A stretch of 62,106 nucleotides of DNA. Source: Betaproteobacteria bacterium (lineage in GTDB: Bacteria > Pseudomonadota > Gammaproteobacteria > Burkholderiales > Casimicrobiaceae). The stretch covers positions 3,861-65,966 of the forward strand of contig JAPUER010000044.1 in NCBI GenBank assembly GCA_027492485.1. The letters run 5' to 3'. The notes below the pieces were generated by a model that worked only from the letters and a program-made list of their open reading frames with translations, did no database searches and was not told the origin of the DNA. The number at the start of each line of letters is the position of its first letter. The stretch's first letter is position 1. This document shows positions 1,282-50,287 of this stretch, one piece after another. The translations under genes and the position numbers were made by a program.

Positions 1282-1305
1282 ACGACTGTCGGCGGTTCGG
1301 CCATC

Positions 1306-1422
1306 AGCTTTTTGGTGAAAGCCTTATTGGAATTGGGCTAACGTCATGAAACGACCGGAAGTCGACTTCCGGGAAAATATCGCCGCAAGCCCAATTGAAT
1401 TGGGCAATCTGGCAAAAAGCTG
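1306..1422. repeat. 117-nt dispersed palindromic element, copy 1
   Basis: Copy 1 of an unrecognised intergenic family. It starts AGCTTTTTGG and ends GGCAAAAAGCTG, giving 8-9 bp terminal inverted repeats. The centre is an 18-bp perfect palindrome, CCGGAAGTCGACTTCCGG (1355-1372). The right half holds a near-perfect hairpin, GCCCAATT-G-AATTGGGC. The element lies between convergent genes and is visibly more A+T rich than its surroundings. See copies at 9624, 12811, 17143, 41793 and 50021. Confidence 0.85.
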
Positions 1423-1517
1423 AACGGCCGCGACGGCGGCGCGCACCGCGCCGTCAACGGAAGTAACTGACTGGCAAGCTGACTCGGCAGCCGAGTGCGG
1501 AAGGGCTGGAGAGCGTT

Positions 1518-9041: not shown

Positions 9042-9593
9042 TTAGCCAGCCGGGACCAGCAACGGCGCGAGTTCCACCTGCAAGCGCTCGGCCTCATCCG
9101 ACATCCACACCTCGCCATCCTGCACCATGCATTGCAGGTTGAGCGAGCGATCCGCCATCGCGGCCAGCGCCTTGCTGCTCGGGCCGCTGACGCTTTTTAC
9201 GGTGAGTTTCTCCTGCTTCGCGAGCAGCGCTTCGTTCTGCTGCCACCACATGTCGACCGTGCGGCCGCCGCCGTAGGCGTAGAGCGCGACGGCGTCGGCG
9301 CGGCCGCAGGCACGGCGGAGCGCGCGCTCGTCGGGCAGGCCGACCTCGATCCACTGCGTGATGCGGCCGGTGAGGTCGCGATCCCACAGCGCCGGTTCGT
9401 CGTCGGTGGAAATGCCCTTGCCGAACTCCAGCCGTTCGCTGGCGTTGAGCGCGAAGGCGAGCACGCGAACCATCATGCGCTCGCTGGTTTCGGACGGGTG
9501 GCGGGCGACGGTCAGCGCGTGGTCGGCGTAGTAGCCGCGGTCCATGTCGGCGACGTTGAGGTTGATCCTGAAGATGGTCGATTTGAGGGCCAT
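9042..9593 (-). CDS. yaeQ: YaeQ-family protein
   Basis: 183 residues, as in E. coli YaeQ. It begins MALKSTIFRINLNVADMDRGYYADHALTVARHPSE-style and contains SERMMVRVLAFALNA, GISTDDEPALWDRDLTGRI and WIEVGLPDE, all family hallmarks. YaeQ has a PD-(D/E)XK nuclease-like fold with an E-x-D..W-x-E arrangement. In enterobacteria it was first reported as a suppressor linked to RfaH loss. Cytosolic; precise role unknown. Confidence 0.93.
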   Translation of the reverse strand: MALKSTIFRINLNVADMDRGYYADHALTVARHPSETSERMMVRVLAFALNASERLEFGKGISTDDEPALWDRDLTGRITQWIEVGLPDERALRRACGRADAVALYAYGGGRTVDMWWQQNEALLAKQEKLTVKSVSGPSSKALAAMADRSLNLQCMVQDGEVWMSDEAERLQVELAPLLVPAG

Positions 9594-9623
9594 GCGGCGT
9601 TCCGTGCGGGATTTTTGAGAAGC

Positions 9624-9739
9624 AGCTTTTTCGTCAACGCCCTATTACACTGGGCGTCAGGGCTGAAAAGCTAATTAGTCGACATTTTGCCTTTTGTGGC
9701 CCTGAGCCCATATCGGCAAACGTTTTCACGCAAAAGCTG
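9624..9739. repeat. 117-nt dispersed palindromic element, copy 2
   Basis: 116 nt from AGCTTTTTCG to CAAAAGCTG, with a hairpin CGCCC-TATTACACT-GGGCG in the left half, central GTCGAC at 9678-9683 and GAGCCCATA in the right half (that stem is degenerate here). Lies between yaeQ and a cupin gene, both on the minus strand. Confidence 0.85.
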
Positions 9740-9765
9740 TATCGCGGAAACGGCACTCGCCACCG

Positions 9766-10152
9766 CTACGGCAGCTTGACGAAGGCGGTCACCAGCGGCT
9801 CGTCGCCGACCTGCCGGCTCCAGTGGCCGTGCACGGCCGGGTCGAAACTGGCGCCCTCGGGCAGCGTGTCGGCGGAAAAGAAATGCTCGCCGGCCCGGAA
9901 AATGCGGCTCGCGCCGTCCTGCAGCCCGATTTCCATGGCGCCGCCGAGCACGAACAGCCATTGCGGCCTCGTCGTGCAGTGCCACTGGCTGCGAAAGCCG
10001 ACCGGGCTTTGCCGCAGTTGCAGGCCGCTGGCCGGCAGCACCGCCGACAGCATCGATTGCGGCGTGCCTTCGCCCAGCGCGATGCGCTCGTCGCGAAAGC
10101 GGGCGCGACCGTCGGTGTCGGTGAACAGGATGACTTGCGTGAAATGGCTCAT
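9766..10152 (-). CDS. Small cupin-like protein
   Basis: 128 residues from the ATG at MSHFTQVILFTD. A compact beta-barrel pattern: GFRSQWHCTTRPQWLFVLGGAMEIGLQDG corresponds to cupin motif 1 and FRAGEHFFSADTLPEG to the following strands. The usual metal-ligand set is incomplete (one His, no clear Glu), so catalysis is doubtful. Cytosolic, function unknown. Confidence 0.7.
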   Translation of the reverse strand: MSHFTQVILFTDTDGRARFRDERIALGEGTPQSMLSAVLPASGLQLRQSPVGFRSQWHCTTRPQWLFVLGGAMEIGLQDGASRIFRAGEHFFSADTLPEGASFDPAVHGHWSRQVGDEPLVTAFVKLP

Positions 10153-11696: not shown

Positions 11697-12767
11697 GTGG
11701 CCGTGACCGCGACCACGATTCCGGCGCCGGCGTCACCGCTGCGGCTGCTTATCCTCGGCGGTAGCGGTTTCATCGGCACCCCGCAGGTGCGCTACGCCGT
11801 CGACCGCGGCCACCGGGTGACGCTGTTCAACCGCGGCCAGCGCAGCAGCGCACGCATCGAAGGCGTCGAATATCTGACCGGCGATCGCGACCAGAACGAC
11901 TACGCCGCCCTGCAGGGCCGCCGCTTCGATGCCTGCATCGACAACGCCACGCTGGTGCCGCGCTGGGTGCGCGAGGCGGCCGCCGTGCTCGCCGGCAACG
12001 TCGGGCATTACACGCTGGTGTCGACGGTGTCGGTGTACGCCAGCGACGCCGAGCCCGACGCCGACGAAACGGCGGCGCGGGCGCCGTATTCGGGCGCTGC
12101 CGATCCGTTGGCGCTATCGCCGGCCGACGTGCGTGCCGACATGACGCTGTACGGTCCGCTGAAGGCGCTCTGCGAAGACGAGGCCGGGCGCTGCTTTCCG
12201 GGTCGCTGCGCCGTGCTGCGGCCGGGGCTGATCGTCGGGCCGGGCGATGAGAGCGATCGCTTCACCTACTGGCCGGTGCGCATTGCCCGCGGCGGCGAGG
12301 TGCTGATTCCGCCGCGCGCAGACCCGGTGCAGTGGATCGACGTGCGCGACGTGGCGGAGTGGAGCGTGCGGGTGGCCGAGCAGCGTCTGAGCGGTGCCTT
12401 CAACCTGAAAGGCCCGGCGCGGGCGACGACGATGGGCGAGATGCTCGACGCCGTTCGCGCCGTCGCCAATCCCGCCGCCGTATTGCGCGAAGCGTCGTGC
12501 GACTTTCTGCAGGCGCACGGGGTGCAGGCGTGGAGCGATTTACCGGTGTGGATCCCGGGCGTCGGCGACACTGCCGGCGCGCACCGCCGCAGCAGCGCGC
12601 GGGCGCTCGCCGCCGGGCTGACGCTGCGTCCGCTGGCGCAGACGGTGGCCGACACGCTGGCCTGGTGGCGGCAATTGCCGCCGTCGCGGCAGAATGCGTT
12701 CCCGGCCGGGAAATTCGGCCTGGCGCCGGCGCGGGAACAGGATTTGCTGCGTCGCCTTGCGGTCTGA
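11697..12767 (+). CDS. NAD(P)-dependent epimerase/dehydratase (extended SDR)
   Basis: 356 residues from a GTG; a second GTG at 11703 is an alternative. The Rossmann glycine motif GGSGFIG is at about residues 21-27, followed by VTLFNRGQRSS, typical of atypical extended SDRs that bind NAD(P). STVSVYASDAEPD and MTLYGPLKALCEDEA supply the Ser and the Y-x-x-x-K catalytic pair (YGPLK). RPGLIVGPGDESDRFTYWPVRIARGGEVL is the SDR C-terminal substrate region. The substrate, perhaps an isoflavone- or sugar-like molecule, cannot be told. Confidence 0.85.
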   Translation: MAVTATTIPAPASPLRLLILGGSGFIGTPQVRYAVDRGHRVTLFNRGQRSSARIEGVEYLTGDRDQNDYAALQGRRFDACIDNATLVPRWVREAAAVLAGNVGHYTLVSTVSVYASDAEPDADETAARAPYSGAADPLALSPADVRADMTLYGPLKALCEDEAGRCFPGRCAVLRPGLIVGPGDESDRFTYWPVRIARGGEVLIPPRADPVQWIDVRDVAEWSVRVAEQRLSGAFNLKGPARATTMGEMLDAVRAVANPAAVLREASCDFLQAHGVQAWSDLPVWIPGVGDTAGAHRRSSARALAAGLTLRPLAQTVADTLAWWRQLPPSRQNAFPAGKFGLAPAREQDLLRRLAV

Positions 12768-12810
12768 TTCGCGCCGGAATCTGCCTGCCGGACGACGGTT
12801 GAGGGTAATT

Positions 12811-12928
12811 GGCTTTTTGCTGAAAGCCGTATGTAAATTGGGCAGAAACCGCAATTTGACGTAAAGTCGACTTTGCTATTTTTCGCGTGATTGCCCATAT
12901 TGAATGGGCGTTGCATCGAAAAGTTGCT
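12811..12928. repeat. 117-nt dispersed palindromic element, copy 3
   Basis: 118 nt from GGCTTTTTGC to GAAAAGTTGCT, central GTCGAC at 12866-12871, right-half hairpin GCCCAT-ATTGA-ATGGGC. It ends 22 nt before the ATG of the hydroxylase gene, so it would lie in that gene's promoter or 5' leader. Confidence 0.85.
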
Positions 12929-12950: not shown

Positions 12951-14078
12951 ATGCTCGAAAAACTCAACGAACTCAGCGAAGGCCACGGCGCGCTGAAGCC
13001 GGGACACGGTCTGGTGACTGGCGTGATTGCGCTGTCGCTGGCGGTGCTGTGCTTTCTGGGCGTGCTCGCCTTTCACTTTCCCGAATACCTCACCACGCCG
13101 CAGTTGCGCAAGAGCTACGACGTCGAACTGATCCGCAAGCTGATGCTCGCCGCGCTGGCGATTGCCGGCGGCCTCAGTCTGGTCAACATCGTGTGCAACC
13201 GGGCGCGCTGGCTGTCGGCCTTCGCTTTCCTGCTGGTGGCGCTCGCCGCGCTGCTCGGCGGCCACAAGGTGGACGTCGACCCGAACTTCCCCGATCACAC
13301 GCCCTACATCGGGCTCGACTGGTTCATTCTCGATCTGCTCGGCTCCTCGTTGATCTTCATCTTCATCGAAAAGCTCTTCGCGCTGCGCAAGGAGCAGCCG
13401 GTGTTCCGCGCCGAATGGCAGACCGATTTCCACCACTTCATCGTCAATCACATGATCGTCGGCTTCGTGCTGCTGGCGACCAATCTGATGGTGCACAAGT
13501 TCTTTGGCTGGGCGGCCAACGACGGCATCCGCGGCTGGGTGCAGGCGCTGCCGTTCTGGGCCGGCCTGCTGCTGATCATTCTGGTGGCGGATTTCGTGCA
13601 GTACTGGACGCATCGGGCGTATCACGAGGTGCCGCTGCTGTGGCGGCTGCATGCGGTGCACCACAGCGTCAAGAGCATGGACTGGCTGGCCGGTTCGCGG
13701 CAGCACGTGCTCGAACTGCTGATCACGCGCACGCTGGTGCTGGCGCCGATCTACGTGCTCGGCTTCTCCAAGGAGGTGATCGATGCCTACATCGTGATCG
13801 TCGGCTTCCAGGCGGTGTTCAATCACGCCAATGTCAGCGTGCGCCTGGGGCCGCTGCGCTACATCATCGTGACACCGAACTTCCATCACTGGCATCACAG
13901 TCAGGACCAGGAAGCGCTCGACCGCAACTACGCGGCGCACTTTGCCTTTCTCGACTACCTGTTCGGCACCGCGGTGAAGAGCGACCGCGCGTGGCCGGAG
14001 CGCTACGGCGTGCTCGGCGACTACGTGCCGAACGGCTTCATCAAGCAGTTCAAGTTTCCGTTCACCTGGAAGGGTTAA
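12951..14078 (+). CDS. Fatty acid hydroxylase / sterol desaturase superfamily membrane protein
   Basis: 375 residues from the ATG with GAGG 10 nt upstream; longer readings start inside the repeat element. Several membrane segments (about 20-42, 60-105, 125-140, 165-185, 200-215) and the three di-iron histidine motifs THRAYH, HAVHHS and HHWHHS in the expected order. Such enzymes use a non-heme di-iron centre to hydroxylate or desaturate lipids in the membrane. The substrate is not clear; bacterial relatives act on fatty acids, hopanoids or carotenoids. Confidence 0.88.
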   Translation: MLEKLNELSEGHGALKPGHGLVTGVIALSLAVLCFLGVLAFHFPEYLTTPQLRKSYDVELIRKLMLAALAIAGGLSLVNIVCNRARWLSAFAFLLVALAALLGGHKVDVDPNFPDHTPYIGLDWFILDLLGSSLIFIFIEKLFALRKEQPVFRAEWQTDFHHFIVNHMIVGFVLLATNLMVHKFFGWAANDGIRGWVQALPFWAGLLLIILVADFVQYWTHRAYHEVPLLWRLHAVHHSVKSMDWLAGSRQHVLELLITRTLVLAPIYVLGFSKEVIDAYIVIVGFQAVFNHANVSVRLGPLRYIIVTPNFHHWHHSQDQEALDRNYAAHFAFLDYLFGTAVKSDRAWPERYGVLGDYVPNGFIKQFKFPFTWKG

Positions 14079-16629: not shown

Positions 16630-17049
16630 TTACACGCGACGCGGCGCCATCGCCTGCACGCTCGCCGCAATGAGCGTTTGCAGCACCTCGCGGTCGACGT
16701 CGGCGAGGCGCTTGATGTAGAGGCAGACCTTGCCGGTCTTGTGTTTGCCCAGTCGGGCGAGCAGGGCGTCATGCTCGTCGAGGCCGGGCATGATGTAGAT
16801 GGTGAGATCGTTTTTGCGCGGCGAGAAGGCGGCGACCGGCCAGGGCTCCTCGTGCCCGTCGGCATATTGCAGGCGGTAGCGGCCGAAGCCGACGATGCTG
16901 CTGCCCCACATCACGGCGGCCTCGCCGGTCGCCTTCTGCATCATCGCCGCCAGCGCGCGGCAATCGTCATGGCGGGCCGGGTCCACTGCGGTGGCGAGAA
17001 ATTCGCCGAAGGAAACGCTGGTCGGCTTGGTCTTGGCTTCTTTCGCCAC
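16630..17049 (-). CDS. DUF1801 protein (YdhG-like)
   Basis: 139 residues from a GTG with GGAG 7 nt upstream; an upstream ATG is possible but its frame looks non-coding. The DUF1801 core is clear: MWGSSIVGFGRYRLQYADGHEEPWPVAAFSPRKNDLTIYIMPG, then LGKHKTGKVCLYIKRLADVDREVL. These small cytosolic proteins have a YdhG-like fold without a known activity. The transcript ends at the hairpin at 16541-16566. Confidence 0.85.
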   Translation of the reverse strand: MAKEAKTKPTSVSFGEFLATAVDPARHDDCRALAAMMQKATGEAAVMWGSSIVGFGRYRLQYADGHEEPWPVAAFSPRKNDLTIYIMPGLDEHDALLARLGKHKTGKVCLYIKRLADVDREVLQTLIAASVQAMAPRRV

Positions 17050-17457
17050 GGGCGGGCTCCTGCGCTGACGGTGGAAGGGAAGATTCGCCGCATTGGCAGG
17101 CGGAGCGTAGCGCAACCGGCGTCCGATCAACACGGAGGCATTGGCTTTTTCGTGTAACCCGCATGCGATATGGGCGGATGGCTAAAAAAGACAAGAAGTC
17201 GACTTTTTATGAAAAATGCCGCTGCGCCCAATTGCAATGGGCGTTACCGCAAAAAAGCTGCTACCGGGAAAACACTTCATCGGGCGTCAACGGCGACACT
17301 GTCGACGCCAGGCGACCGCTGGCGGGTGACGGCGACGAGGCGCGGAACCCTCGTCCGCGGCCGGCAGTCGGATAACGTTGATCCGGTTGGCGGGTGGCGC
17401 AACAGTGCCGCGCGCCAATCCCACGACGACACGCCAACGAGGACACGAGGAAACCCC
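17050..17457. other. Intergenic region between divergent genes
   Basis: 408 bases between the DUF1801 gene and the TerB-like gene. It holds copy 4 of the 117-nt element (17143-17260). The 200 bases after it show no recognised promoter or gene. GAGGACACGAGG lies just before the ATG at 17458. Confidence 0.75.
17143..17260. repeat. 117-nt dispersed palindromic element, copy 4
   Basis: 118 nt from GGCTTTTTCG to CGCAAAAAAGCTG, central GTCGAC at 17198-17203, left-half CCC-GCATGCGATAT-GGG, right-half GCGCCCA-ATTGCAA-TGGGCGTT. It lies between divergent genes. Confidence 0.85.
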
Positions 17458-18447
17458 ATGAATGTAGAACAGCAACGCGCCACGCTCGCCATCGCACTGA
17501 TGAGCGCATTCGCCGATGGCGGCAAGGATGGCCGCGAGCGCGACGCGCTGGAACGCATTGCCAGCCGGCTGACCGGCGAGGGCGGCAGCGCCGCCGGCCT
17601 CGACATGCAAAGCCTGTATCAGGACGTGATCTTCCGTCGCGTCACGGTCGAAAGCGCCGCCGCCGCGCTCGACGACGATGCGTCGCGCCGGCTTGCCTAC
17701 GAGATGGCGGTCGGCGTGGCCAACGCCGACGGCGCGCAGAACGAGCGCGAGCAGGCCTTCCTCGCGCAGTTGCGCGACGCGCTGCGTCTGTCCGAGGCCG
17801 ACGCCAATGCCATCGCGGCGGACGCCGTCAACATCGCCGGCGCGGCCTGGGGCGCCCCCGCCGACGCCGCGCTGCTGCAACCGTTGCCGGCCACACCCGG
17901 CGGCGCCGCACCGGCCGCCAGCGTCGATCGCGCCGAGCTCGACAAATCGATCCTCAACGCCAGCATCCTCAACGGCGCGCTGGAGCTGCTGCCGCAATCG
18001 TGGGCGACGATGGCGATCATCCCGCTGCAAACGCGCATGGTCTACAACATCGGCAAGGCGCACGGCTACGAGCTCGACAGCGGGCACGTCAAGGAATTCC
18101 TGGCCACCGTCGGCGTCGGTCTGGCGTCGCAGTATCTCGAGCAGGCCGGACGCCGGCTGATCGGCGGGCTGTTCGGCAAACTGGCCGGCGGACTGGTCGG
18201 CGGCATCGCACGCGGCGCCACCGGCATGGCGTTCTCGTTCGCCACCACCTACGCGCTCGGCCAGCTTGCCGTGCGCTACTACGGCGGCGGGCGCAGCATG
18301 AGCACCGAGGTGCTGAAGCAAACCTTCGACGATCTGCTGGCGCCGGCGAAAGAGATGCAGGCGCGCTACCTGCCGCAGATTCAGGAGAAGGCGCGCGGAC
18401 TCAACGTCGGCAACGTGATGGAGATGATCCGCGGCAACCGCGTGTAG
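17458..18447 (+). CDS. TerB-like / DUF697-type protein
   Basis: 329 residues. The N-terminal half (residues 5-125) is helical with two TerB-like acidic helices: MSAFADGGKDGRERDALERIA and AVGVANADGAQNEREQAFLAQLRDAL, the latter with the D-G-x-x-x-x-E pattern of TerB. The C-terminal half has ILNGALELLPQSWATMAIIPLQTRMVYNIGKAHGYEL and a glycine-rich membrane-like segment (FGKLAGGLVGGIARGATGMAFSFATTYALGQLAVRYY), as in YcjF/DUF697 proteins. A membrane-associated stress or envelope role is likely but unproven. Confidence 0.75.
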   Translation: MNVEQQRATLAIALMSAFADGGKDGRERDALERIASRLTGEGGSAAGLDMQSLYQDVIFRRVTVESAAAALDDDASRRLAYEMAVGVANADGAQNEREQAFLAQLRDALRLSEADANAIAADAVNIAGAAWGAPADAALLQPLPATPGGAAPAASVDRAELDKSILNASILNGALELLPQSWATMAIIPLQTRMVYNIGKAHGYELDSGHVKEFLATVGVGLASQYLEQAGRRLIGGLFGKLAGGLVGGIARGATGMAFSFATTYALGQLAVRYYGGGRSMSTEVLKQTFDDLLAPAKEMQARYLPQIQEKARGLNVGNVMEMIRGNRV

Positions 18448-40944: not shown

Positions 40945-41589
40945 TCAGTGCTTGTTGCCGCCCGGCGGCGACATCAGGCGGTCGGTCATGGCAATAGCCA
41001 TCGCCGAGAACAGGAACGCAATGTGGATTGCCGTCTGCGCAATCAGCGTCTTCTCGGTGTATTGCTCGGCGTTGATAAAGGTCTTGAGCAGGTGGATCGA
41101 CGAGATGCCGATGATCGCGGTGGCGAGCTTGACCTTGAGCACCGACGCGTTGACGTGCGACAGCCATTCCGGCTGGTCGGGGTGGCTTTCCAGCTCCATC
41201 CGCGAAACGAAAGTTTCATAGCCACCGACGATCACCATGATGAGCAGGTTGGAGATCATCACCACGTCGATCAGGCCCAGCACCAGCAGCATGATCAGCG
41301 TCTCGGTCAGCTTGGTCGGCACCGGCGCGCAGACGCGATCGGCCACCTGCGCCGCAGTCGGGTCGCACGGTTGAACCGAGCTGGCGATGGCGGCGACCGC
41401 CTGCGACGAACCAAACGCCGCCTCGATCAGATGCACCAGCTCGACCCAGAAGTGAAAGACGTAGACCGCCTGGGCGACGATCAAGCCGAGATAAAGCGGC
41501 AATTGCAGCCAGCGGCTGGCAAAGATGATGGCGGGCAGCGGGCGCAGGCGGCGGTTCGATGCGACGGCGGGAGATTGCGTGGACTTCAT
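40945..41589 (-). CDS. UPF0114 (YqhA) family membrane protein
   Basis: 214 residues from the ATG at [10 protein letters not shown]. About four membrane helices: [61 protein letters not shown] and [23 protein letters not shown], which are family signatures. A loop of about 50 residues with two Cys (VQPCDPT.. RVCAPV) is longer than in E. coli YqhA. It lies 36 nt downstream-to-upstream of fumA on the same strand. Function unknown. Confidence 0.88.
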
Positions 41590-41792
41590 GGCGCACTCGG
41601 GGCGCAGCGTCGACGCGTTTGGCATCGTGCAGCCGCCGGCCCGGACAGGGACGATGGAAAAAGGCAGTTTAGCACCCGCAGTTGCCCGCTAGCGGGTGCC
41701 GGGGCGCGGGCATTTGCCGTCGAGCGATCGCGCGGCAAGGGCCATGCAAGAGCGCTTCCCGACATGGCGGAGGAACAAGATTTCAGCATAAC

Positions 41793-41909
41793 AACTTTTT
41801 GTTGAAACTACCTTTGCATAAGGCATAGCATCGAGAAATACTCATTATCGACTTCGCATAGATTTGGCATCCAAGTCCATATTCGTTGGGCGTTTCACGT
41901 GAAAGCTGT
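41793..41909. repeat. 117-nt dispersed palindromic element, copy 5 (most diverged)
   Basis: 117 nt from AACTTTTTGT to GTGAAAGCTG. The centre is ATCGAC (41847-41852) instead of GTCGAC. The right hairpin is GTCCA-TATTCGT-TGGGC, where a C-to-T change is tolerated as a T-G pair. The left hairpin is CCTT-TGCAT-AAGG. The spacing of all landmarks is kept. Confidence 0.75.
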
Positions 41910-41965
41910 ATGCCAGTCCTATGTAAGACTCACGTCAATGACCGCCGCTATCGTGTCGGCAGTTT

Positions 41966-42059: not shown

Positions 42060-44036
42060 ATGTCTGCCATTGAATCCGTCCTTGTCGAAAATCGCGTGTT
42101 TCCGCCGTCGGCCGCGTTTACCGCGCAGGCCAACGTCAAGCCCGCCGATTTCGAGGCGATGAAGGCCAGGGCAGACCGCGATCACGCCGGTTTCTGGGCC
42201 GATCTCGCCCGCGAAAACCTGATCTGGTCGAAGCCGTTCACGCAGTCGCTCGACGACAGCGATGCCCCATTCTTCAAGTGGTTCGCTGACGGCGAACTCA
42301 ACGCCTCCTACAACTGCCTCGACCGGCACCTGAACACGCCGGTCGCCGACAAGACGGCGATCATCTTCGAGGCCGACGGTGGCGACGTCACCCGCGTCAC
42401 TTACCGCGAGCTCTACAAGCGCGTTTGCCGCTTCGCCAACGGCCTGAAAGCGCTCGGCTACAAGAAGGGCGATCGCGCGATCATCTATCTGCCGATGTCG
42501 ATCGAGGCGGTCGTCGCCATGCAGGCCTGCGCGCGCATCGGCATGACGCATTCAGTGGTGTTCGGCGGCTTCTCGGCCAAGAGTCTGCAGGAGCGCATCG
42601 TCGACGTCGGCGCCACGCTGGTGATCGCCGCCGACGAGCAGATGCGCGGCGGCAAGGCGATCCCGCTGAAGCCTGCTGTCGATGAGGCGTTCGCAATGGG
42701 CGGCTGCGACGCCGTGCGCCACACCATCGTCTACAAGCGCACCGGCGGCAACGTTGCCTACGGCCCGAAAGACATTGACTGGGCCAAGGTCGAGGCCGGT
42801 CAGGCCGAAGACTGCCCGGCCGAAATGGTGGGCGCCGAACATCCGCTGTTCGTGCTCTACACCTCGGGCTCGACCGGCAAGCCGAAGGGTGTGCAGCATT
42901 CCACCGGCGGCTATCTGCTGCATGCCATGCTCACCATGAAGTGGACGTTCGACATCAAGCCGGACGACGTCTTCTGGTGTACCGCCGACGTCGGCTGGGT
43001 GACCGGCCACACCTACGTGACCTACGGCCCGCTCGCCGTCGGTGCCACCGAAATCATCTTCGAAGGCGTGCCGACCTACCCGAACGCCGGGCGCTTCTGG
43101 GACATGATCCAGAAGCACAAGTGCACCGTGTTCTACACCGCGCCGACGGCGATCCGCTCGCTGATCAAGGCGGCCGACACCACGCCTGATTTCGCTCCGG
43201 GCACGTACGATCTGTCGTCGCTGCGCCTGCTCGGCTCGGTTGGCGAGCCGATCAATCCTGAAGCGTGGATGTGGTACTACAAGAACATCGGCGGCGAACG
43301 CTGCCCGATCGTCGACACCTTCTGGCAAACCGAAACCGGCGGCCACATGATCACGCCGCTGCCGGGCGTGACGCCGCTGGTGCCGGGCTCCTGCACGCAG
43401 GCGCTGCCGGGTATCGCCGCCGCGATCGTCGATGAAACCGCGAACGACGTGCCGAACGGCGCCGGCGGCATTCTGGTGGTCAAGAAGCCGTGGCCGTCGA
43501 TGATCCGCACCATCTGGGGCGATCCGGAGCGCTTCAAGAAGTCCTATTTCCCGGACGAGCTCAAGGGCTATTACCTGGCCGGCGATGGCGCGGTGCGCGA
43601 CGCCGTGCATGGCAACTTCCGCATCACCGGCCGCATCGACGACGTGCTGAACGTCTCCGGCCACCGTCTCGGCACCATGGAGATCGAGTCCGCGCTGGTC
43701 GCCAATCCGCTGGTGGCCGAAGCCGCCGTAGTCGGCCGTCCGGACGATACTACGGGCGAGGCAGTGTCGGCCTTCGTCGTACTCAAGGGCGCCCGCCCGG
43801 TCGACAAGGAGGGCGCTGCGAAGATTGCGAAGGAGCTGCGCGACTGGGTCGGCAAAGAGATCGGGCCGATCGCCAAACCGAAGGACATCCGCTTCGGCGA
43901 CAACCTGCCGAAGACGCGCTCCGGCAAGATCATGCGCCGGCTGCTGCGCGCCATCGCCAAGGGCGAAGAAATCACCCAGGACGTATCGACGCTGGAAAAC
44001 CCGGCCATCCTCGAACAGCTCAAGCAAAGCCTCTAG
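42060..44036 (+). CDS. acs: Acetyl-CoA synthetase (AMP-forming)
   Basis: 658 residues. Activates acetate: ATP plus CoA plus acetate to acetyl-CoA, AMP and PPi. The AMP-binding P-loop [11 protein letters not shown] lies around residues 265-276, [18 protein letters not shown] is the substrate and adenylate site, and [23 protein letters not shown] is the hinge. The regulatory and catalytic Lys is in [14 protein letters not shown] near residue 622, the site acetylated by Pat-type enzymes. AGGAGG lies 7-8 nt upstream. Followed by a symporter pair fit for acetate uptake. Confidence 0.97.
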
Positions 44037-48596: not shown

Positions 48597-49976
48597 ATGG
48601 CCACGATCGATACCCTCATCGCCCTGTCCCCGCTGGACGGGCGCTACCAGCGCAAGGTTGCCGCGCTCGGCGACGCCTTCAGCGAATTTGCCCTCACCCG
48701 CGAGCGCGTGCGCGTCGAGTTTGCCTGGCTGCGCTCGCTCGCCGCCGAGCCGGACATTGCCGAGTTGCCGCCGCTGAGCGACCAGGCGTTGGCGTTCCTC
48801 GACGCGCTGGTGGCCGGGTTTTCGGTGGATGACGCAGCGGCGGTGAAAGCCATCGAGGCGACCACCAATCACGATGTGAAGGCGGTCGAATACTGGATCA
48901 AGGACAAGTTCAAGGCGCTGCCGGAGTTGGCCCCGCACGCCGAATTCGTGCATTTCGCCTGCACCTCGGAAGACATCAACAACGTCGCGCACGCGCTGAT
49001 GCTCAAGCGCGGCGTTCACGGCACACTGCTGCCGCAGCTTGACGATGTGATTGCATCGCTGGCAACGCTCGCCATCGCCACGGCGGAGCTGCCGATGCTG
49101 TCGCGCACGCATGGTCAGGCGGCCACACCGACCACGATGGGCAAGGAGATCGCGCTGTTCGTCGACCGCCTGCGCCACGCGCGGGCGCAGATTGCCGCCG
49201 CGCCGCTGCGCGCCAAGATGAATGGCGCCGTCGGTAACTACAACGCCCATCTTGCGGCATATCCCGAGGTGGACTGGCCGGCCCTGTCGCAGGGCACGGT
49301 CGAGACGCTGGGCCTCGTCTGGCAGCCGATGAGCGCACAGATCGAGCCGCACGACTACATGGCTGAACTGTTCGACGCCATCGCCCGCGCCAACACCGTT
49401 TTGATCGACTTCTGCCGCGATACCTGGGGCTATGTCTCGCTTGGTTTCTTCAAGCAGCGATTGAAGGAGGGCGAGGTCGGCTCCAGCACCATGCCGCACA
49501 AGGTCAATCCGATCGATTTCGAAAACGCCGAGGGCAATTTCGGCCTCGCCAACGCGCTGTTGCGCCATCTCGCCGAAAAGCTGCCGGTCTCGCGCTGGCA
49601 GCGCGATCTGACCGACTCCACAGTGCTGCGCAACATGGGCGTGGCGGCGGGCTACAGCCTGCTTGGTCTGGTCTCGGCGCGGCAGGGCATCGGCAAGCTC
49701 GAAGTCAACGCCGACGCCATGCTGGCCGACCTCAATGCGAATTGGGAAGTGCTGGCCGAGCCGGTGCAGACGGTGATGCGGCGCTACGGCGTATCGGGCG
49801 CCTACGAGCAGTTGAAGGCATTGACGCGCGGCCAGCGCATCACGCCACAGGCGATGACGGCCTTTATCGACGGGCTTGACATTCCGGCCGCAGCGCGCGC
49901 GGCGCTGCGCGAGCTGACGCCGGCCCGCTACACCGGCCTCGCGGCCGAACTGGCGCGCCGTTACGCGCTGCCGTAG
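48597..49976 (+). CDS. purB: Adenylosuccinate lyase
   Basis: 459 residues, the E. coli-like form. Two steps of purine synthesis: SAICAR to AICAR plus fumarate, and adenylosuccinate to AMP plus fumarate. Starts ATIDTLIALSPLDGRYQRK; HFACTSEDINNVAHALML, LSRTHGQAATPTTMGKE (His region), and the lyase signature SSTMPHKVNPIDFENAEGN near residue 296 with the catalytic Ser loop. No ribosome-binding site is clear. Cytosolic. Confidence 0.97.
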   Translation: MATIDTLIALSPLDGRYQRKVAALGDAFSEFALTRERVRVEFAWLRSLAAEPDIAELPPLSDQALAFLDALVAGFSVDDAAAVKAIEATTNHDVKAVEYWIKDKFKALPELAPHAEFVHFACTSEDINNVAHALMLKRGVHGTLLPQLDDVIASLATLAIATAELPMLSRTHGQAATPTTMGKEIALFVDRLRHARAQIAAAPLRAKMNGAVGNYNAHLAAYPEVDWPALSQGTVETLGLVWQPMSAQIEPHDYMAELFDAIARANTVLIDFCRDTWGYVSLGFFKQRLKEGEVGSSTMPHKVNPIDFENAEGNFGLANALLRHLAEKLPVSRWQRDLTDSTVLRNMGVAAGYSLLGLVSARQGIGKLEVNADAMLADLNANWEVLAEPVQTVMRRYGVSGAYEQLKALTRGQRITPQAMTAFIDGLDIPAAARAALRELTPARYTGLAAELARRYALP

Positions 49977-50287
49977 CGTCGGGACAGTCGCCGCCGTTTG
50001 CGTGGCCGTGGAAAGGCTATAGCTTTTTCATAGAAGCCCTATTGCATGCGGCACCAGCGCAATATTTTCCAATTGTCGACTTTTGCCATTTTGAAGCCGC
50101 GAGCCCATAGCGAATGGGCATTGAGCATAAAAGCTGATTACCGCGGCAGCCGTCGTCCATCGCCGGTGCGATGCATATCTATAGGGTAATTTTTGCTATC
50201 GGGGTTGCCGATTGCAGACCTAGAATCGGTCGTGAAGCTGCATTGCAGTTCCCGATGAACTGGCCATATCCGGAGGAGGAGATGCCA
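49977..50287. other. Intergenic region before fccA
   Basis: 311 bases. It holds copy 6 of the dispersed element (50021-50136) and the fccAB promoter region. TATAGGGTAATTTTTGC around 50180 is A+T rich and may include the promoter. A GGAGGAGGAG ribosome-binding site is at 50272-50281. Confidence 0.65.
50021..50136. repeat. 117-nt dispersed palindromic element, copy 6
   Basis: 116 nt from AGCTTTTTCA to CATAAAAGCTG, central GTCGAC at 50075-50080, right-half hairpin GCCCAT-AGCGA-ATGGGC. Lies between purB and fccA, same orientation of genes. Confidence 0.85.

Follow-up and report, generated by a model that had tools for sequence, protein, structure and literature searches.

Evenly spaced 122-bp dyad elements in a Burkholderiales genus look like the sites of an undescribed chromosome-organising system

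Six palindromic elements between the genes of a 62,106-nt stretch of a betaproteobacterial genome (the window) are a real family and part of a chromosome-wide set. They are probably binding sites of a putative multi-subunit complex that would organise the chromosome into units of about 11 kb. From the anatomy, number, conservation and spacing of the elements, set out below together with other explanations, we infer that proteins bind the sites, that they do so as a complex of several subunits, and that the sites have an architectural role.

All six copies were found where the preliminary description had placed them, with the ends and the length of 116-118 nt given there and with GTCGAC at the centre of every copy except the fifth, which carries ATCGAC. 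They start with RRCTTTTT and end in text of the AAAAGCT type (AAAAGTT in copy 3). The motif reaches 3 nt beyond these ends on each side, as seen in 58 strict matches from the own genome, which brings the element to about 122 bp. The stems that had been described held up only in part: the full left-half CCC...GGG is confined to copies 2 and 4, and copy 2 is without the right-half GCCCA...TGGGC. Listed without a strand, the elements are distributed as follows. Element 1 (1303..1424; earlier 1306-1422) has a GTCGAC centre and lies between a convergent gene pair. Elements 2 (9622..9740) and 3 (12810..12926) occupy tandem spacers, the former between 9042-9593 and 9766-10152 on the minus strand and the latter between 11697-12767 and 12951-14078 on the plus strand. 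Element 4 (17141..17261) is found in the divergent spacer between 16630-17049 (-) and 17458-18447 (+), and element 5 (41790..41910; centre ATCGAC) in that between 40945-41589 (-) and the acetate-CoA ligase gene 42060-44036 (+). Element 6 (50018..50138) is located 3' of purB (48597-49976, +). All six copies sit between predicted genes, one in a convergent, three in tandem and two in divergent arrangement, and the claim of a palindromic intergenic family present in every gene orientation was borne out.

Further copies in the genome, for which the preliminary description had proposed a search, are many. The strict pattern RGCTTTTT-N-GTCGAC-N-AAAAGCY matched 43 times on the forward and 38 times on the reverse strand in the 4.12 Mb of the own genome, compared with 1 and 0 matches for a control pattern read backwards. 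A profile made from own-genome elements gave 42 matches in 475 kb of the sister genome G038, all of at least 27.5 bits, and the reversed-sequence control never rose above 6.7 bits in that stretch. Contiguous stretches from three species of one Burkholderiales genus contained 42 (G038), 31 (G000, contig C79, counting one element split in two) and 26 (G208) matches. The density of 82-88 per Mb across the three stretches corresponds to about 310-395 elements per genome, a total extrapolated from contiguous stretches of mostly fragmented assemblies. The split element of G000 (C79:196040-196400) is apparently a single element broken near its centre by a palindromic GC-rich insert of about 200 bp; the insert is of the GGGGAGGG/CCCTCCCC type and apparently belongs to a different repeat family. 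On the same contig, only about one half scores at 79997-80062, 84375-84436, 146909-146993, 161456-161533, 300029-300113 and 327122-327184, and we regard these elements as half-eroded sites or as sites with one functional half.

Each site is a 122-bp dyad of the form WWCAGCTTTT...AAGTCGACTT...AAAAGCTGWW. A single half-site consensus was obtained from 71 centre-distinct elements of the own genome, and the half is 57 or 58 nt long in 133 of 142 cases in a search that permitted more. On its outer side stands the WWCAGCTTTT block; the lateral operator further in, a W-tract and one half of the AAGTCGACTT palindrome at the centre make up the rest, and the spacing of the blocks is fixed to about 1 bp; the boundaries of the own-genome matches are sharp and their termini inverted. 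Some columns of the half-site accept A and T alike and nothing else, or G and C alike with few exceptions; positions 45-46 of the 58-nt halves, for example, are 100% W and about half A, half T. The outer and central blocks are common across the genus and the lateral operator varies by lineage, being GCCCATT..ATGGGC-like in group A and AACGACC..GGTCGTT in group B. In the own genome, a member of group A, two of 75 elements (L011 and L024) carry the group B operator in both halves and five have mixed halves. The summed information amounts to 78-84 bits per site (25 of 26, 23 of 31 and 40 of 42 matches, the short ones dropped), whereas some 13.5 bits suffice to specify one site per 11-12 kb. This surplus makes it likely that several proteins or subunits would act at each site. 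Helical phasing of the blocks looked promising by eye and was given up as an argument, as the best A/T period was 7.6 bp in group A, 9.8 bp in group B and 9.7 bp in group A2, with no clean 10.5-bp helical period in the periodogram.

The preliminary description had also considered a structured RNA and had named covariation among the copies as a check. On this criterion the structural reading fails, because the agreement between the two halves does not exceed what the base frequencies of each column, taken separately, would produce. Identity at mirrored positions was 0.436 against 0.427 expected from column composition in 33 elements with two 58-nt halves, 0.432 against 0.431 in 38 elements of group B, and 0.453 against 0.448 in 20 elements of group A2. 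Among 23 sequences, 60.0% of cells were paired compared with 58.6 +/- 1.0 after shuffling (40 of 500 shuffles were as high) and the covariation score was 0.196 compared with 0.185 +/- 0.013. One of five covariation measures exceeded the shuffles, namely further pair types with 114 against 103.1 +/- 4.7 (8 of 500 as high). Some excess left-right identity occurs at positions 31-33 (z 2.6-3.6), in part because A and B subtypes are mixed in these GGGC columns, and the lateral dyad of group B is slightly over-complementary (0.496 vs 0.463). In favour of an RNA, or else a single-stranded DNA hairpin or cruciform, the predicted RNA folds of four copies in the window surpass those of shuffled sequences (z -5.19, -3.25, -3.29 and -4.01). 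Good folds follow from the dyad consensus alone, however; the folds of copies 5 and 6 do not surpass those of shuffles (z 0.32 and -0.51), and no Rfam family reached its gathering score in the window, in agreement with the preliminary description, which could not name one. We consider such a structure highly improbable. Both halves obey one consensus independently, as expected of a symmetric protein-binding site, and the observations argue against an RNA or hairpin and for a DNA dyad.

The elements are a property of one genus. The strict pattern occurred in two of 200 genomes of an order sample, the own genome included, and in one of 369 genomes of a class sample, the own genome, so that absence at class and order level refers to the strict pattern only. 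Within the family it was found in 11 of 64 genomes, all from the own genus of 17 members. Profile R1, built from the sequence of 86 elements and counted over the best 150 (genus) or 56 (rest of the family) scored candidates per genome, detected the element in 16 of the 17 genus members and in none of 47 genomes from the other six genera of the family. By this profile G211 is the genus member without elements. About 13 were present in G163, compared with a few hundred (extrapolated) in other members; judging by these two genomes, the set can be dispensed with in this genus. A scan of named contigs returned at least 93 stretches. Among the 80 loci listed, 58 are from Burkholderiales and 15 from Pseudomonadota or Proteobacteria, and seven are isolated matches from other taxa, which on inspection by eye have no inner motif and seem fortuitous. 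One group A2 element (57.6 bits; L263:8843-8957) is carried by a 12.5-kb contig that was classified as viral and has genes for a primosomal protein, a minor tail protein and an ATP-dependent DNA ligase. Here a phage may be making use of the site of its host, and by analogy the element is reminiscent of the gyrase site of phage Mu.

Positions are largely shared between species. For all five window elements covered by the comparison of gene order (elements 2 to 6), G038 has an element between the same two genes. G214 likewise has an element after the orthologue of 11697-12767, the gene 5' of element 3, and one upstream of the orthologue of the ligase gene next to element 5. In a nucleotide-level comparison, 87 own-genome matches were tested and 19 had both flanks within the G038 stretch, with G038 gaps of up to 2.9 kb. 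An element lay between the flanks in 18 of these 19 matches, equivalent to 17 of 18 distinct elements since two matches are halves of one split element, and in 11 of 12 where the G038 gap was below 1 kb. In the reverse direction, 14 of 42 G038 elements were testable and 13 had a counterpart in the own genome. Two sites were therefore present in one of the two species and absent from the other. At G000:C79 ~99593-99842 the spacer measures 249 bp with an element, compared with 58 bp without one in G038, which represents a gain or loss of a site.

Aligned orthologous elements were 0.61 identical, compared with 0.58 for unrelated ones (13 pairs, a few of them imperfectly centred). Their identity climbs from 0.31 in low-information columns to 0.76 in high-information columns, and the non-motif bases are near saturation. 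The element downstream of purB was recovered by pattern in G038, G214 and G215, partially by profile in G208 and by eye in G212, and variants without the GTCGAC centre were seen by eye in G213, G198, G206, G204 and G125. The variants keep AGCTTT and GGGC-type blocks, and the centre is replaced in some lineages. The site was not seen in G207, G210, G205, G211 and G163 in this comparison, which covered the genus apart from G209. For the distant member G163, 12 of its 13 places were tested and a protein match of any kind was obtained for five of them among the sequences compared; at three of the 12 loci both flanking genes matched genes beside G000 or G038 elements (one flank of L226 over 52 residues only), and at a fourth locus this held for one side. 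The sites thus keep both their place and their motif while the rest drifts, which is the behaviour of binding sites under selection and not of a recent mobile repeat. Shared positions together with near-saturated non-motif bases suggest that the copies are maintained, unlike inert relics.

The elements are also evenly spaced. Mean gaps were 11.4-12.0 kb in the three stretches and the coefficient of variation (CV) of the gaps was 0.46-0.64, compared with about 0.95 by chance. In the G038 stretch (42 elements in 475 kb, a mean spacing of 11.3 kb; C1:1275000-1749999) the CV was 0.54 and one of 41 gaps was shorter than 4.3 kb, a cut picked after the G038 gaps had been seen. A random choice among the 153 intergenic spacers gave 12.0 such gaps on average, and a CV as low as 0.54 arose in a fraction of 0.00005 of 20,000 draws. 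The group B contig C15 of G208 (318 kb, 26 elements) had a CV of 0.46 and none of its 25 gaps fell below 4.3 kb. Spacing on contig C79 of G000 (359 kb, 31 matches) was less even than in G038 and G208, with a CV of 0.64, a uniform-null fraction of 0.0052 and two of 30 gaps below 4.3 kb, the shortest of which reads as the split element. Along the whole single-contig chromosome of G038, the 93 elements among the top-scoring matches listed were uniformly distributed (KS p 0.83) and left no gap below 4.3 kb, where 8.0 were expected.

No element among the 42 of the G038 stretch shared over 30% of its length with a predicted gene, genes having been predicted by a simple codon model that may miss small ones. 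Among G038 spacers of at least 150 bp, elements used 16 of 38 and seven of 46 tandem, 11 of 34 divergent and six of 14 convergent ones; the difference between tandem spacers on the minus strand (16/38) and the plus strand (7/46) is possibly tied to replication direction. The 60 own-genome elements comprised 20 in convergent, 26 in tandem and 12 in divergent spacers and two unclassified ones, one at a locus edge and one overlapping a predicted ORF. Convergent spacers appeared enriched in the strict G000 set (20 of 60 elements vs nine of 70 background spacers of at least 100 bp), an enrichment that is weak or absent in G038 (six of 14 convergent vs 34 of 118 other spacers used). The statement that the elements are no shared promoter or terminator agrees with these data. 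A terminator role was rejected because elements occupy divergent and tandem spacers of at least 150 bp in G038 at similar rates (11/34 vs 23/84), and a promoter role because the use of gene orientations does not fit it.

A MITE- or ERIC-like element had been suggested at the outset. The likeness, one of general features, lies in a length of about 120-130 bp, the palindromic form and the intergenic location. ERIC and MITE copies within one genome are close copies of each other. In contrast, the present elements share only the motif, show no excess of target duplications, are conserved in position and are evenly spaced. An active MITE finds no support: target-site duplications were not in excess among 120 pattern matches at lengths of 2-9 and offsets of 0-2 bp, the largest signal being two cases against 0.64 expected at length 5, and the polymorphism in position between species that such an element would imply is limited to two differences (17 of 18 and 13 of 14 positions shared). 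The three G163 loci with matching flanks on both sides and the even spacing speak against an active MITE as well. A REPIN/RAYT system was likewise rejected, given that Y1 transposases occur in 15 of 17 genus members and not in the element-bearing G163, whose assembly is listed as 98% complete; Y1_Tnp was the one protein family profiled across the genomes. An ancient MITE is another proposal, in which each 58-bp half is a transposon end, the two set back to back, and the pair spread once and was then inherited vertically, inert or domesticated, target immunity having caused short-range repulsion between copies. Inverted termini and sharp boundaries would fit, as would the deficit of close neighbours that target immunity would give, the low number of copies in G163 and the 249-bp spacer with an element in G000 next to the 58-bp spacer without one in G038. 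In principle, past target immunity might have left the even spacing behind as a fossil. Nevertheless, we hold this origin to be unlikely: there is no excess of target-site duplications, no full-length relative with an internal gene came to attention, G163 has elements without Y1 transposases, and the conserved GTCGAC centre would be needless for transposing two ends. Positions are, moreover, largely shared while the non-motif bases are near saturation, so that copies appear maintained, which argues against inert fossils and not against a domesticated one.

Known sequence-specific systems of the chromosome also share features with the elements. As strong DNA gyrase sites, of the kind represented by the SGS of phage Mu or by BIME-2 of E. 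coli, they would load gyrase at regular intervals. Gyrase is near-universal and the elements turned up in a single genus, which speaks against this proposal, as do the nearly invariant AGCTTTT and GTCGAC blocks and the lineage-specific lateral operators, given that the gyrase motif is degenerate, and the best A/T periods of 7.6 bp (A) and 9.7-9.8 bp (A2, B), where a strong gyrase site would have a GC profile with a 10.75-bp period, symmetric about the point of cleavage. On the other hand, the E. coli gyrase motif is described as 130 bp long, symmetric and alternating between A/T and G/C, and the Mu SGS, itself part of a phage, delimits a topological domain (available portion of PMC6379681). 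A long dyad, A/T-G/C alternation and recognition over more than 100 bp are common to both, and the viral-classed contig carries one element as Mu carries its SGS. The A-type profile reached z 1.94 at the Mu dyad, the highest of 14 centres printed, provided that the bottom strand is cut 4 bp right of the annotated site; this position ranks only 985 of 36,586, and a stagger to the left gives z -0.26. With this weak Mu match, and with elements in hundreds and evenly spaced, we judge gyrase sites an improbable explanation. We rate as quite improbable the dispersed sites of a positioning system of the Noc or SlmA kind (nucleoid occlusion, or anchoring at the membrane or in division) or a global transcriptional insulator, although many dispersed intergenic dyad sites in every gene orientation would suit either. 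Sites of matS/MatP, SlmA and Noc are likewise palindromic, sequence-specific and chromosome-organising, and matS is 13 bp long. Those sites are short and biased towards or away from Ter, while the present ones are 122 bp, number in the hundreds and show no such macrodomain bias among the 93 best-scoring elements listed for G038. The 50 SlmA sites, 12 bp long, fall mostly within coding regions and are missing from Ter, which is where MatP binds (PMC3116907, in the part available); the uniform and intergenic placement in G038 differs in both respects. The similar use of divergent and tandem spacers argues against a terminator. The roughly 600 BIMEs of E. coli are proposed supercoil barriers (PMC6907758, available portion) and REPs are palindromes of 20-40 bp (PMC3733652, available portion). 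The present elements resemble them as hundreds of palindromic intergenic copies per genome and plausible topological barriers, and differ in that each is one 122-bp dyad of fixed design whose halves do not covary as those of a hairpin would, and in their even spacing and mostly unchanged positions.

Hundreds of large, evenly and uniformly placed, largely orientation-indifferent sites point to a role at the level of the chromosome, and they look like an undescribed chromosome-organising system. In the mechanism that we favour, a putative multi-subunit protein complex would bind each double-stranded dyad site of about 122 bp, and several hundred intergenic sites, one about every 11 kb and mostly fixed between species, would serve as regular landmarks of the chromosome. 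Most likely, the bound complexes would bridge one another or act as supercoil barriers, dividing the chromosome into roughly 300-400 loops or topological domains. More tentatively, the system may be a scaffolding dedicated to this genus, with a clade-specific complex on some 300-400 sites of 122 bp, about 11 kb apart, that forms regular loops or supercoil domains; we regard this as quite possible. Even if the architectural reading fails, several hundred evenly spaced, position-conserved sites of 80 bits are unusual, and we know of no family to which they belong.

Topological domains of E. coli are reported to span 10-400 kb, with barriers placed apparently at random and their nature described as an open question (PMC6907758, available portion). 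A hard-wired domain ruler as proposed here would differ from these randomly placed barriers. The available portions of PMC6379681, PMC6907758, PMC12306157 and PMC3116907 contain no description of the element, the subscription literature lying mostly outside this scope. In the bacterium studied here, units of the chromosome appear to be marked out at a regular spacing by the DNA sequence, and the sites can be read, deleted, moved and used as bait. If the architectural reading is true, they would provide several hundred genetically defined candidates for domain landmarks and lead directly to the protein.
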